The position numbers and the translations under genes are program-made. This document shows, one piece after another, positions 19,666 through 25,816 of a DNA stretch of 49,617 nt. Every line of letters starts with the position of its first letter. Position 1 is the stretch's first letter. Source of the stretch: an uncultured Bacilli bacterium (GTDB lineage Bacteria; Bacillota_I; Bacilli_A; RF39; UBA660); assembly GCA_947629315.1 (NCBI GenBank), contig CANRDB010000009.1, positions 1-49,617 on the forward strand, read 5' to 3'. The notes beneath the pieces are model-generated. The model searched no databases. It was not told where the DNA came from and saw nothing but the letters and a program-made list of their open reading frames with translations.

Positions 19666-19688
19666 AATAGAAGAATAGAGGTGTGAGC

Positions 19689-22658
19689 ATGGATATTCAA
19701 ATGGTGGAAAGAACACAGGGAAATTCTACTAAAATTTTTTTTCGAGTTTCCAGAGGAACACTTCTCAAAATCCGTTCTATTGTTCAAAATTGTACCTATT
19801 TTCCTATTTTAAAAAAATTAAGAACGAGCACAGAAGAATATTTTGAACTTCCATTGAGTGATTTTTATGATTTATTAGTAGAAGTGTGTTCTTGTGCGAA
19901 TAATAGTTGTATCTATACTATCGTAGAAAAAATCCAAGCAACAGAGGAAATTAAGAATCAATATCGGCAAGCGAAAGAGGCATATTTAAAACAAGTAGGA
20001 CCAGTGGACAGCCGTCAATCTTATTATGATAACGATAAGCAGGTGGATACTTTGCTTGGTCAAATGCTATACGATAAGCAAAATCATATCGATGATTTTC
20101 TAAAAAATGCTTATGCTGTTCAACAAGCCAATCAACGCCTTTATCTATTACGAGATTTACAGTCTGCGAAAAATCAACTCTTGAAAAATCTAAAGATGAT
20201 TATTTCTCCAGAAGAGGTTTTAGAGTTTGAAAAGAAATACGATGCAGCAGGAGAGAACTATGATGTCGATACGATGCAGACATTATTGCGACAAGCTCAA
20301 CAACAGATTTTAGATCATTGGAAAACTTTTGTTACCAATCCGAAAGATTATCATGCTGGAGAGGATTTTTATTTTATCTGTCATAGTACTACCACTACTC
20401 AATATCAAGGAGAATTTTCTTCTCGGTTCGTTTCTTGTTCTTTATTATCCCATCGTTTAATGGATACGTATCGTTCTGGCTTTGGGTTTATCTTCGCACC
20501 AAATTATATTGTAGGTGCTATGGGACAAGATATGTATGTGAATAATCGGGCAGAAGATGAGTCAAATTTGACTAGCTATTCTAGTATTCCTCACATTGAA
20601 ATACCAGAGATAGTTTTACAAGACTGTCTAGAACAAAAAAGAGATAACCTCCAAAATCAAGATACTAGGGCTACCTATAATGAGGTTGTCATCGATGGTT
20701 TTGAACCGATTGCTATCTTTTGTTTAACAGATGGTAGTAAAACTTTGAATAATAATTATAATAACGCTCAAAAATTAAAGGAGTGTTTTCCTCATTTAGA
20801 GATTGTAGAGATTGATCAAACCCTATATTTAGAAAATCAAGAAAATTTATTAATGAATTTGATTACTGTTCTCGAACAGAAGACTAGAAAGACAACCGAT
20901 TTTGGTTTTAACGTTGATTTATCGTACAGTCGCCGTTTTGATTACTTTTGGAAAAAATATTTGGAATTAAAGCGCACCGGCAATTATGAAGAAAACGATA
21001 TTATAGAATTTTATCGTCAAGATTTAGACATGATTCATTTTTATCAGGAAAGTAAACTATTTTCTGGTGCTTATGATCAGGAACAAATCCGCCATATCCT
21101 ATGGCAAAGTTATACATTTAATATGAGGCAATGTTTAGAAGAACCATTCAGTTTGAAGTCTCTAAATACGTTATATCAGAAATTGCAAAGAACGAATTAT
21201 CGAGATATTGATCAAGAAAGTTTAAATCAAATAATAGATGGGTTAGGGACATTTTTAGAACTCTATCCTCAAGTTCCCATTACTGAAGATTTTTTAAATC
21301 AATGGAATCAAATCCCTCATCGGAGTTTGGTGGATATCAATCGTACTCTTACGGAGGCTCTTAATCAAAGACAGCAAATTTTACAGGAGTTGCACGCTAA
21401 AATAGAGCGAAAAGAAGCTTTCTCATCTCAGGATGTTCAAAATTTACGGCAATGCTTACTAGAAAATCCAGAGATATCTCGTATTTTGACAGAGCCTTCT
21501 ACCCCTTCGCAATTATCTAGTTTGTGGAACTGTATCCGAATCTATCCGTCATTACTCTTGGAACAGGCTATTTCTGGCTTAGGAACATTTCTAGAACTTT
21601 ATCCGGATGCTAAATTATTAGAAAGTGATTGTTTTTATCCAGATGAAAGACATAATTTTCAATTTCTGAATGATCATTTACAAATTAGTATTCGCAAACG
21701 GGCTTTAGAAATCTACTCTTACTTATGGAACCGAAAAAAAATTCCATGGACAGAGGAAGAAATGCAAGATTTTCGTTATTTAGTTCTTCATGAACCAGAG
21801 TTACATATGAACAATATCAAGGGTGGAAATCTTACTTGTGAACAGATTAGTCGGATTTATTGGTTTTGTCATCCTTATTCTCTAGCGAATGATTTAAATC
21901 GTGTCATCCCTGGCTTAGGAACGTTTCTAGAACTCTATCCTCATGTGAAATTAGAAAATTGGATGCTTGCTAATCAAGAACAATCACAGGAATTATCTTT
22001 GGAAGGAATCTGTCAGGTTTTATTGTATCAATTGCAAAACCAGAAACATACTTTATCTAGTCAGCAAGAAAATTGTCAGAAAGAAATTTCTCAAAAAGAA
22101 AAATTAATCTATGACATAGAACAAAATCACAAAATCCTAAATTACACCTTTTCTTATCATTTAGCGATGTTAGATGCTCGTGATATTAGGCAACAAATCA
22201 CACAAAATAGGGCGGAATATGAGGATTTTTCCAAGGCCTATATAGACGGAGAACAACAACTGATTGATAAAAAACTTTCACAATTATCGCTCGAAAGATT
22301 TTCTGTACTCCATTACTTACAAAAGAAGCAACTTCAGAAGGAGTTATATGAGTTAGAACAATCTTGCCGAGAGTATCAACAAGAGATGCAACGATTGGAT
22401 AGTTGTCTAAGAGTATATCAGCGGCAATGGGAACAAATTTGTCGCAAATTTCAAAAGGAAACTGGCTATGATATTCACCAATTTGCGAATGTTGTAAGAA
22501 AAGCAAAAAGATTTATCAGTCAACATGCCGATATTTTGGAAGAACGATGTCAGGTAGATGAATTGAAATTAGAACTTTCTAAAATTCAAGTAGAGTTGGC
22601 GGAATTAGAACCAGTTTTACGAAAATATTCCACAGAACATCATCTATTTCAAAAATAA
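19689..22658 (+). CDS. Large uncharacterised protein with a triplicated GLGTFLELYP motif
   Basis: A 989-residue soluble protein, not recognised. ATG 19689 is chosen because AGAGGTG sits 5 bp upstream; GTG 19683 overlaps that site. There are three regions. Residues 1-200 include short Cys-rich strings. A middle alpha/beta domain (about 220-400) contains DFYFICHST, SSRFVSCSLLSHRLMDTY, GFGFIFAPNYIVGA and TYNEVVIDGFEPIAIFCL, an H / S-x-S / E order reminiscent of ADP-ribosyltransferases. The next region is built of units of about 112 residues, each carrying GLGTFLELYP (near 518, 630 and 741). Last is a long coiled coil (about 785-975). Monocistronic with its own promoter and terminator. No membrane span. 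Confidence 0.75.
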   Translation: MDIQMVERTQGNSTKIFFRVSRGTLLKIRSIVQNCTYFPILKKLRTSTEEYFELPLSDFYDLLVEVCSCANNSCIYTIVEKIQATEEIKNQYRQAKEAYLKQVGPVDSRQSYYDNDKQVDTLLGQMLYDKQNHIDDFLKNAYAVQQANQRLYLLRDLQSAKNQLLKNLKMIISPEEVLEFEKKYDAAGENYDVDTMQTLLRQAQQQILDHWKTFVTNPKDYHAGEDFYFICHSTTTTQYQGEFSSRFVSCSLLSHRLMDTYRSGFGFIFAPNYIVGAMGQDMYVNNRAEDESNLTSYSSIPHIEIPEIVLQDCLEQKRDNLQNQDTRATYNEVVIDGFEPIAIFCLTDGSKTLNNNYNNAQKLKECFPHLEIVEIDQTLYLENQENLLMNLITVLEQKTRKTTDFGFNVDLSYSRRFDYFWKKYLELKRTGNYEENDIIEFYRQDLDMIHFYQESKLFSGAYDQEQIRHILWQSYTFNMRQCLEEPFSLKSLNTLYQKLQRTNYRDIDQESLNQIIDGLGTFLELYPQVPITEDFLNQWNQIPHRSLVDINRTLTEALNQRQQILQELHAKIERKEAFSSQDVQNLRQCLLENPEISRILTEPSTPSQLSSLWNCIRIYPSLLLEQAISGLGTFLELYPDAKLLESDCFYPDERHNFQFLNDHLQISIRKRALEIYSYLWNRKKIPWTEEEMQDFRYLVLHEPELHMNNIKGGNLTCEQISRIYWFCHPYSLANDLNRVIPGLGTFLELYPHVKLENWMLANQEQSQELSLEGICQVLLYQLQNQKHTLSSQQENCQKEISQKEKLIYDIEQNHKILNYTFSYHLAMLDARDIRQQITQNRAEYEDFSKAYIDGEQQLIDKKLSQLSLERFSVLHYLQKKQLQKELYELEQSCREYQQEMQRLDSCLRVYQRQWEQICRKFQKETGYDIHQFANVVRKAKRFISQHADILEERCQVDELKLELSKIQVELAELEPVLRKYSTEHHLFQK

Positions 22659-22717: not shown

Positions 22718-22746
22718 TTGAAAAACAAGGTATTTTACGATATAAT
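22718..22746 (+). promoter_or_regulatory. Strong promoter of the pseudo-pyrophosphatase transcript
   Basis: TTGAAA (22718-22723), exact 17-bp spacer, TATAAT (22741-22746). Predicted transcript start near 22753, about 190 nt before the coding sequence. Confidence 0.7.
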
Positions 22747-22761
22747 GATACTAGAGGGAGA

Positions 22762-22800
22762 ATGAAATACTACTTGTATGATTACTCCCATAGAAACTGA
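22762..22800 (+). CDS. Candidate 12-codon tyrosine-rich leader peptide
   Basis: AGAGGGAGA precedes an ATG that opens a short frame, MKYYLYDYSHRN, ending in TGA. Four of twelve residues are Tyr. It lies at the very 5' end of the predicted leader transcript of the pyrophosphatase paralogue. This could be an attenuation-type leader peptide or chance; no independent support is visible. Confidence 0.35.
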   Translation: MKYYLYDYSHRN

Positions 22801-22943
22801 GAAAGTTTTCAATGCCATTGCTCTAGGACATCACTCGTTGTTGTCATAGAAAAAATAATACTGGAAACTTTCGCATGTTCTGTAAGAAATCAGTCGAAAC
22901 ACATCATTGATTCGCACTGATGAGTAGTAGAAGGGAAGATAAA
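22801..22943 (+). promoter_or_regulatory. Structured 5' leader of the 22944 gene
   Basis: An 11-bp stem pairs GAAAGTTTTCA (22801-22811) with TGGAAACTTTC (22862-22872), one G-U pair, enclosing about 50 nt that can form a smaller GACA/TGTC hairpin. A second, weaker hairpin (CATCA / TGATG) sits near 22902-22922 just before the ribosome site AAGGGA. No known riboswitch consensus (T-box, fluoride) is recognisable. Confidence 0.4.
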
Positions 22944-23408
22944 ATGATCGATGTTATAATTGAAATACCATTAAACTCAAAAATTACTTATAAGGTAACG
23001 GCAGGAGTTCCTAGGGTAGAGGAGATTCGTTATTTCCCTCTTCCATATCCTTTAGAAAGAGGATTTGTAGAAGATACTCTGTTAGAAGATGGACAATGCT
23101 TGAAAGCATTAGTATTGAATTCTGAGTCAACGGTACCAGGAGGAGCTGTTCCAGCACGTGTTATTGGATATTTGGAAATGTACATGGACGGACAAGAGGA
23201 TTACCGTATATTAGCAGTTGCTGATTGCAATAGAAAATATAAAGATATTGATGGATTACAAGACGTATCTCACTTTACTTTGAAAGAGATTACGGATTAT
23301 TATACTACTTATGGAAAAATTCATGACAAAAGTATTCAAATTGTTCGTTATCATTCTAAAGAAGAGGCATTACAATTAGTAGAAGATGCCACAAAAAGAG
23401 CGGCATAA
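22944..23408 (+). CDS. Family I inorganic pyrophosphatase paralogue, probably catalytically dead
   Basis: 154 residues, start after AAGGGAAGATAAA. It aligns end to end with the intact pyrophosphatase at 23898 (IEIP, YP, VPARVIG-LEMY, NFTL/HFTLKEI) but has lost most active-site residues. DGDPLD has become DGQCLK (D49 kept, then Q51 and K54). Relative to the E. coli Ppa scheme, K29 is Thr, E31 is Lys, R43 is Glu, Y55 is Arg, K104 is Arg and K142 is Gly. Equivalents of D65, D97 and D102 remain. The fold is likely preserved, so a regulatory or ligand-binding role is more plausible than hydrolysis. The frame is intact, so it is not simply decaying. Confidence 0.85.
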   Translation: MIDVIIEIPLNSKITYKVTAGVPRVEEIRYFPLPYPLERGFVEDTLLEDGQCLKALVLNSESTVPGGAVPARVIGYLEMYMDGQEDYRILAVADCNRKYKDIDGLQDVSHFTLKEITDYYTTYGKIHDKSIQIVRYHSKEEALQLVEDATKRAA

Positions 23409-23435
23409 AAAAAGAAGTCTAGTTACTTCTTTTTT
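23407..23435. terminator. Bidirectional terminator
   Basis: AAAAAAGAAGT, loop CTAGTT, ACTTCTTTTTT between convergent genes. Confidence 0.9.
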
Positions 23436-23806
23436 AGTTCTAATAAAAGGGATTGATATTCATTCTGCAATGTTTGATATCGATTTAATATATCATTCGA
23501 AATCCCATAATTGCGCATATCTTTCTCCATTAAAAGCAATTCTGTTAACGTGCAAAGAAGAGTATGACCCATTTGAGCATGAATTAATTTATCATAATCA
23601 TAGAACAACTGTTGTTCTTGATACTTTCGATCCTGCATATATTCCCATAATGCTGACGTGTAACCATCAATCTCTCGAAATGCATCCATGGGAGTGAGAG
23701 TAGTAGCTAGATAGGCAAAATACTCTACTCTAGCGATGGGAATGTAATGGGTATTTTCTTTCGTTTTCATTTCACTGATTGGAATTAATTCAATTTCTAA
23801 TTGCAT
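23423..23806 (-). CDS. Uncharacterised small helical protein
   Basis: The start is taken at 23806 (MQLEIELIP) because GGTGAAGA is well placed there; the frame extends a few codons further upstream without a site. 127 residues, mostly helical, no membrane span or signal peptide. Contains ARVEYFAYLATTLTPMDAFREIDGYTSALWEYMQDRKYQEQQLFYDYD. I do not recognise a family. It sits convergently between the two pyrophosphatase paralogues, so it may be an insertion between tandem duplicates, or they may have diverged around it. Confidence 0.65.
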   Translation of the reverse strand: MQLEIELIPISEMKTKENTHYIPIARVEYFAYLATTLTPMDAFREIDGYTSALWEYMQDRKYQEQQLFYDYDKLIHAQMGHTLLCTLTELLLMEKDMRNYGISNDILNRYQTLQNEYQSLLLELKKK

Positions 23807-23863
23807 ATTCTTCACCATTTTTATCATAGCACAAAAATGATAGAAAAGTCATCCATTTTCGTG

Positions 23864-23869
23864 TATAAT
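23864..23869 (+). promoter_or_regulatory. -10 element of ppa
   Basis: TATAAT 28 bp before the ppa start; -35 is weak. Confidence 0.45.
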
Positions 23870-23897
23870 AAAAATAGAACAAAATGAGGAGGAAAAT

Positions 23898-24377
23898 ATG
23901 GTAAATGCAATCATTGAAATACCTAAGGGTACAAAAAATAAATATGAAGTAATGAAAGAAAGTCAAAATATTAAATTAGACCGTGTATTATATTCTGCCA
24001 TGACTTATCCAGCAGAATACGGATATATTGAAAATACATTAGCAGGAGATGGAGATCCACTCGATATTTTGGTTATCAGTACTGAAAGTAGTTTTCCAGG
24101 GTGTGTTGTACCTGCCCGTGTCATCGGATGTTTAGAGATGTATGATAACGGAAAAGAAGACTATAAGATTATCAGTGTTGTAGGAGTTGACCCACGATAT
24201 AAAGAAATTGAAAATTTAGAGGACTTATCTAATTTTACTTTACAAGAGATTCAAAATTTCTTTGAAAATTATAAAAAATTACAAGAAATTGAAGTAGTTG
24301 TCAAAGGTTATCATGGAAAAGAACATGCTTTTCGTGTTATAGAAGAAAGTCAGAAAAGATATCAAGAAAAAATGTAA
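23898..24377 (+). CDS. ppa: Inorganic pyrophosphatase, family I
   Basis: Hydrolyses PPi to two phosphates in the cytosol. All catalytic residues are present: K15 and E17 in NKYEV, R29 in LDRVLY, Y41 in EYGYI, the D51-G-D53-P-L-D56 metal motif, D83/D88/K90 in YDNGKEDYK, and Y-K in ENYKKL. 159 residues, compact as in many bacteria and archaea. Start after GAGGAGGAAAAT. It is the active counterpart of the degenerate paralogue 490 bp upstream. Confidence 0.95.
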   Translation: MVNAIIEIPKGTKNKYEVMKESQNIKLDRVLYSAMTYPAEYGYIENTLAGDGDPLDILVISTESSFPGCVVPARVIGCLEMYDNGKEDYKIISVVGVDPRYKEIENLEDLSNFTLQEIQNFFENYKKLQEIEVVVKGYHGKEHAFRVIEESQKRYQEKM

Positions 24378-24985: not shown

Positions 24986-25017
24986 TAAAAAAACGCTTTT
25001 GAAAAGCGTCGTTTTTT
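24986..25017 (-). terminator. Terminator of the 25832-25016 operon
   Basis: AACGCTTTT and AAGCGT(C)GTT arms with flanking A and T runs, overlapping the stop codon at 25016-25018. Confidence 0.85.
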
Positions 25018-25816
25018 ACATTCCTACCATTAATGGAAATACTAATAACACTGCTACAATAAGTACTCCGAACAAAATGACAAGGAACATCAAATTTCTC
25101 TTACCCTGTTCTTTTTCCTGTTGATTTTCAGATACCATAGAATGAATTAATTTATCTTCTTTTTTTGGTTTTAATTCTTCTGAAACATCATCTTCTAGAA
25201 CGCTCGTGTCAAAAGTAGGAATAACATCCTCTACAGTAGGTTCAGGTTTGCTTTCATTTTCTAAAATAATAGGGGTTTGTTCTATTGTAGGAATAACGGG
25301 AGTTTCTGGTGTAGTTTCTACTGGTGTTACTTCCGTAGTTGCTGTATTAGCATATAATTGGTTATAATCAAATGTACTATGATCCTCTTCTGGAGATGGC
25401 ATTGGTAAATCAGATGGGGTAGGTGCTACCGGTACTTCTGGAGTAACTGGTGCAGGAGTTGGTGCTTCTTGAGGCATAGCCATTGGAGCAGGAGCAACTG
25501 CTTCTTGAGGCATAGCCATTGGAGCAGGAGCAACTGCTTCTTGAGGCATAGCCATTGGTGCAGGAGTTGGTGCTTCTTGAGGCATAGCCATTGGTGCAGG
25601 AGTTGGTGCTTCTTGAGGCATAGCCATTGGTGTAGGTGCAGGAACTCCTTGTGTAACTGGCATTGGTGTTGGAACAGGTGCTGTCTCCATAGCAGGCATT
25701 GGTGTTGGAATACTTTCTGGAACCATTCCTGGCATTGCTTGTGGTTGCATAGGCATTCCCATTGGCATAGCTGCTTGTGTAGGCATTTGATTATTTAGAT
25801 TATTATTTTCTTCCAT
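25016..25816 (-). CDS. Pro/Met/Ala-rich repeat protein with C-terminal membrane anchor
   Basis: 266 residues. Residues 1-70 are Met-Pro rich. Five near-identical 12-residue units (MAMPQEAxxPAP, about 62-125) follow, then an acidic low-complexity region and a single C-terminal hydrophobic span (about 244-264, preceded by KEQGKRN). No N-terminal signal is present, so this is predicted tail-anchored with the repeat region in the cytoplasm. Functionally unrecognised. It is second in a two-gene operon with another tail-anchored protein (15 bp gap). Start after AAAGGGGAAAATAT. Confidence 0.75.
   Translation of the reverse strand: MEENNNLNNQMPTQAAMPMGMPMQPQAMPGMVPESIPTPMPAMETAPVPTPMPVTQGVPAPTPMAMPQEAPTPAPMAMPQEAPTPAPMAMPQEAVAPAPMAMPQEAVAPAPMAMPQEAPTPAPVTPEVPVAPTPSDLPMPSPEEDHSTFDYNQLYANTATTEVTPVETTPETPVIPTIEQTPIILENESKPEPTVEDVIPTFDTSVLEDDVSEELKPKKEDKLIHSMVSENQQEKEQGKRNLMFLVILFGVLIVAVLLVFPLMVGM
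25455..25632 (-). repeat. 36-bp coding tandem repeat, five copies
   Basis: The string CTTCTTGAGGCATAGCC recurs at 25465, 25501, 25537, 25573 and 25609, exact 36-bp period, encoding MAMPQEA units. Such arrays readily vary in copy number by slippage. Confidence 0.9.

Follow-up and report, generated by a model that had tools for sequence, protein, structure and literature searches.

A lineage-specific family I pyrophosphatase pseudoenzyme at the ppa locus of an uncultured Bacilli genus and its possible assembly with Ppa

What keeps a second copy of the inorganic pyrophosphatase gene open at the ppa locus of an uncultured Bacilli bacterium, when most of the residues that catalysis depends on have been replaced in it? 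The locus lies in a stretch of 49,617 nt (contig CANRDB010000009.1, positions 1 to 49,617, forward strand), which is called the window here. A previous reading of the letters alone (the sequence-only reading) had described tandem pyrophosphatase genes, with the intact one following 490 bp after a dead one. The intact gene and the gap are as described, but the two are not directly adjacent, as an antisense gene fills most of the gap. The three genes are:

22944 to 23408, forward strand: dead family I pyrophosphatase paralogue, 154 aa (PF00719 match, replaced catalytic residues, predicted fold, orthologues in two more species), called the dead copy below
23423 to 23827, reverse strand: gene of a 134-aa protein between the dead copy and ppa, divergent from ppa (comparative genomics)
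23898 to 24377, forward strand: intact ppa, family I inorganic pyrophosphatase, 159 aa (PF00719 match, 13 of 13 catalytic residues present)

Fold, active site and expression signals of the dead copy

The dead copy starts with ATG and has an open frame (coding 22944–23405, stop codon 23406–23408), and its product matches PF00719 with E=3.3e-28 and 98.9 bits (cut-off 23.5); the product of ppa (coding span 23898–24374) matches the same family with E=6.7e-56. Using an input alignment of window proteins and related loci, with the orthologues of the two other species left out, AlphaFold predicted a complete OB-type family I pyrophosphatase fold for the dead copy (pLDDT 94), and the top-ranked PDB matches to this model were all family I pyrophosphatases, in agreement with the earlier claim that the fold-defining strings are kept.

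Compared with E. coli Ppa in mature numbering, the dead copy carries K29T, E31K, R43E, Y55R, D67Q, P68C, D70K, D97M, K104R and K142G, with nine catalytic residues replaced, and retains E20, Y51, D65, D102 and Y141. The catalytic residues of the E. coli reference sequence sit at the published positions, and its numbering agrees with that of the A. baumannii enzyme in PMC6770254, which is one higher. K29 and K142 correspond to K30 and K143 of A. baumannii PPase, where K30R or K143R alone removes almost all activity (PMC6770254). The family signature DxDxxD (PMC8386120), formed by D65, D67 and D70, is broken to DGQCLK, just as the sequence-only reading had noted for the DGDPLD string; its list of lost residues (K29, E31, R43, Y55 and K142) was right in every entry but incomplete, as D97 and K104 are replaced too. 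All 13 catalytic residues were found in 62 of 63 active relatives from the genus, family and class, and the remaining one misses only the first catalytic column, where its alignment row is gapped; that is, the full set is unbroken in 62/62 active homologues aligned over all 13 columns. By its sequence, the dead copy is a genuine lineage-specific pseudoenzyme, which has probably lost PPi hydrolysis.

The expression signals around the two genes are:

22718 to 22746, forward strand: promoter-like site of the dead copy, TTGAAA-17-TATAAT, a strong match (11 of 12) by consensus only, conserved in both orthologues
22750 to 22943, forward strand: probable long leader of the dead copy (three-species alignment, hairpin folding)
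23841 to 23869, forward strand: promoter-like site of ppa, TAGAAA-17-TATAAT, 10 of 12 consensus matches, spacing conserved in two relatives

The start at 22944 was preferred over an upstream ATG at 22920 because the corresponding codon is the start in both orthologues, where a good ribosome site precedes it. The claims of an intact frame, promoter and ribosome site thus held up, with start and ribosome site positioned as in the orthologues. Since some 200 nt separate the promoter-like site from the start codon downstream, the dead copy probably has a long leader, and with a promoter and leader of its own it is therefore not simply co-transcribed with ppa. Within the leader, a block at 22818–22850 (TTGYTCTAGGACAT...TGTNATAGA) is conserved in all three species and can fold as a hairpin. 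When translated, the block resembles the PP-loop motif of TtcA-like proteins; the leader reading LALGHYLDDVIEQ resembles TtcA-like proteins of the genus (IALGHHFDDVIET), with a TtcA model score of only E=0.14. The block may represent an RNA element of the leader, the remnant of a gene, or the two combined. A known riboswitch was considered for the leader and rejected, Rfam giving no match up to E=1. Elsewhere in the genus the leader motif had one chance match, within an hsp20-like gene, and none was found in viral contigs.

Orthologues, selection and descent

The homologue survey suggested by the sequence-only reading bore out shared retention and countered the isolated decay that it had named as a refutation: two further species of the genus carry orthologues of the dead copy at this locus, 60–64% identical over the full length, and they share its substitutions. 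Along each of these loci come a CmpB-like gene, the dead copy, the 134-aa gene and ppa, in that order. In two further species of the genus the locus contains the 134-aa gene and ppa but no dead copy, and a family I match is missing in seven of 12 genus genomes; every genome with the dead copy has ppa too, at the same locus (3/3). No second copy was seen outside the genus among the listed matches from samples of 386 family, 385 order, 395 class and 392 phylum genomes, which overlap and are not exhaustive. Plasmid and phage matches, judged by identity alone, were all <60% identical.

R43E, Y55R and K142G are common to all three orthologues (window copy included), and K29, E31, R43, Y55, D97, K104 and K142 are replaced in 3/3. 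At the metal ligands the replacements differ, D67 becoming Q/S/S, D70 K/R/R and D97 M/V/I, and the signature position reads DGSRLR in the two other species. Pairwise dN/dS between the orthologues was 0.33, 0.28 and 0.19 at dS of about 0.7–1.2 (bootstrap medians 0.32, 0.27 and 0.17; upper bounds 0.52, 0.42 and 0.30), so that the dN/dS check proposed earlier, at about 0.17–0.33, indicates purifying selection. A decaying pseudogene that is open by chance would account for the faster evolution of the dead copy, which by dN/dS is about two- to threefold that of ppa in the same genomes (0.08–0.16). The presence of three orthologues that are all open and share the substitutions, and dN/dS well under 1 at such dS, argue against it; the three-species comparison already contradicts decay, which we regard as barely credible.

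In the tree, the dead-copy orthologues group together as a single clade (100/100), which sits among ppa genes from the same taxonomic family and has a very long stem, of 1.98 changes per site. A reduced tree joined them to the ppa genes of the genus with support that is not strong (81/64), and a sister position to ppa of the three host genomes alone was not rejected (AU 0.18); we are unsure of the exact origin point owing to long-branch effects. As far as these comparisons go, the pattern is what would be expected from one duplication, a burst of change and then renewed constraint. A long stem followed by constraint would also fit the gain of a new catalytic activity on another substrate. The metal ligands D67, D70 and D97 and the basic K29 and K142 are gone without consistent replacement, however, and we consider a new enzyme very improbable.

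The 134-aa gene is conserved and restricted to the genus, being present in 5/5 genus genomes with family I ppa and 0/7 of those without; it was not found in 144 other genomes of the family. Its dN/dS is about 0.12–0.18 where dS is defined, and its product is a candidate functional partner of Ppa. Single-sequence structure prediction gave a poor model of the protein (pLDDT 51).

Other features were seen around the locus and in its relatives. In the window, the gene of a 991-aa protein (19683–22658) without a clear family match separates the CmpB-like gene from the dead copy, and is missing from that place in the two orthologous loci; it contains three imperfect 54-nt repeats at a spacing of exactly 336 nt, which repeat LGTFLELYP. 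The ORF list further gives a 266-aa protein (25016–25816, reverse strand) in which tandem repeats of the APMAMPQEA type are found together with a hydrophobic C-terminal segment. In-frame TGA codons were observed in ppa of relatives from the same class, which would point to a class with Mollicutes among its members.

Conserved surfaces and the proposed partner

Bacterial family I pyrophosphatases are trimers stacked into hexamers. Among the three orthologues, 6/13 former catalytic positions are invariant, versus 86/154 positions overall (p=0.56), while the helix region 107–124 has 16/18 positions conserved (p=0.002) and holds the longest invariant run of the dead copy, 14 residues (p=0.012), values that come from three sequences in all and from a helix picked after inspection of the alignment. 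This helix is the equivalent of the trimer–trimer interface helix of E. coli PPase and includes the counterparts of H136 and H140; according to the title of reference 41 in PMC6770254, substituting these residues dissociates the E. coli hexamer into trimers.

As it is the predicted oligomer-interface helix that is constrained, rather than the former active site, we favour a non-catalytic subunit in assembly with Ppa. The former active site might otherwise sense a different ligand, such as a phosphate compound or a nucleotide. E43, R45, F47 and R55 are invariant in the three orthologues, differ from the active enzymes and cluster on the former pocket strands, with K/R at 70; the charged E43, R45 and R55, specific to the dead copies, could alternatively mark a rebuilt pocket. 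Yet the 13 former catalytic positions are conserved no more than the rest, and the charges at 31, 102 and 104 vary among the orthologues. The comparison thus gives weak to moderate evidence for partner binding rather than for ligand sensing in the former pocket, and we take the sensor to be improbable.

A conserved surface helix, together with the independent promoter and long leader, would also suit a dead copy that forms its own oligomer and serves as scaffold or adaptor for a partner other than Ppa, with which it would have no contact. Its occurrence only beside ppa at the same locus speaks against this, weakly, with three genomes; we judge such a role unlikely, though the strongest competitor of assembly with Ppa.

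The reading we prefer, to which we give about an even chance, is that the dead copy is a duplicated, non-catalytic subunit most likely assembling with Ppa. In this model, one ppa duplication in one lineage of the genus would have produced the second copy, which would have lost PPi hydrolysis and undergone a burst of change, and purifying selection would since have kept it as a non-catalytic protein. The dead subunit would join Ppa via the preserved oligomer surfaces, and the mixed assembly would tune the activity, stability or contacts of Ppa. The separate promoter and long leader of the dead copy count against this model. Both proteins are small and probably soluble. The more specific proposal, in which a catalytically dead paralogue enters mixed trimers or hexamers as a subunit and so controls a bacterial family I pyrophosphatase, is plausible but somewhat short of even chances. 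Of the sequence-only reading, retention for a function is well supported; the regulatory, scaffold and ligand-sensor roles that it had suggested are candidates.

Comparison with known systems

The closest known system is the family I soluble inorganic pyrophosphatase itself (PF00719; E. coli Ppa, A. baumannii PPase, A. thaliana PPA1, 4lug), with which the dead copy shares its descent, the whole-length fold (TM 0.91) and residues such as E20, Y51, D65 and Y141, and from which it differs in the broken signature and the nine replaced catalytic residues. Enzymes of this family are generally regarded as housekeeping proteins that lack a dedicated protein regulator. A search of the open literature, with subscription papers mostly outside its scope, gave no report of a pseudoenzyme in family I. 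Control by a dead paralogous subunit, if true, would be a regulation of PPi hydrolysis undescribed for family I in the open literature searched.

A regulated type of soluble PPase is known in the family II CBS-pyrophosphatase, which is also present in the genus. It differs in its unrelated DHH fold, in being regulated via its own extra domains and in having no dead paralogue. Family II (DHHA2) matches were found in 11/12 genus genomes, and the single one scanned was found to have CBS and DRTGG domains. The exception is the genome of the window, whose 79.8% completeness may explain the missing family II match; no membrane PPase was found in the genus. Ppa lacks built-in domains of the CBS/DRTGG kind, and its control could come from a dead partner.

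If the assembly with Ppa is right, the dead copy would work like the dead-paralogue activators of trypanosomatids, the AdoMetDC prozyme (PMC5201418) and that of deoxyhypusine synthase (PMC3663545), in which hetero-assembly and activation are proven. The likeness lies in a duplicated copy of an oligomeric enzyme that no longer catalyses the reaction and persists alongside the active form; here, a presumably dead paralogue is under selection beside the active enzyme in 3/3 genomes. The enzyme is a different one and the host is bacterial, and hetero-assembly is in this case a proposal drawn from sequence. With a dead paralogue at the same locus in three species of a genus that also has family II pyrophosphatase, this would be a simple bacterial case of a homo-oligomeric enzyme gaining a non-catalytic subunit by duplication.
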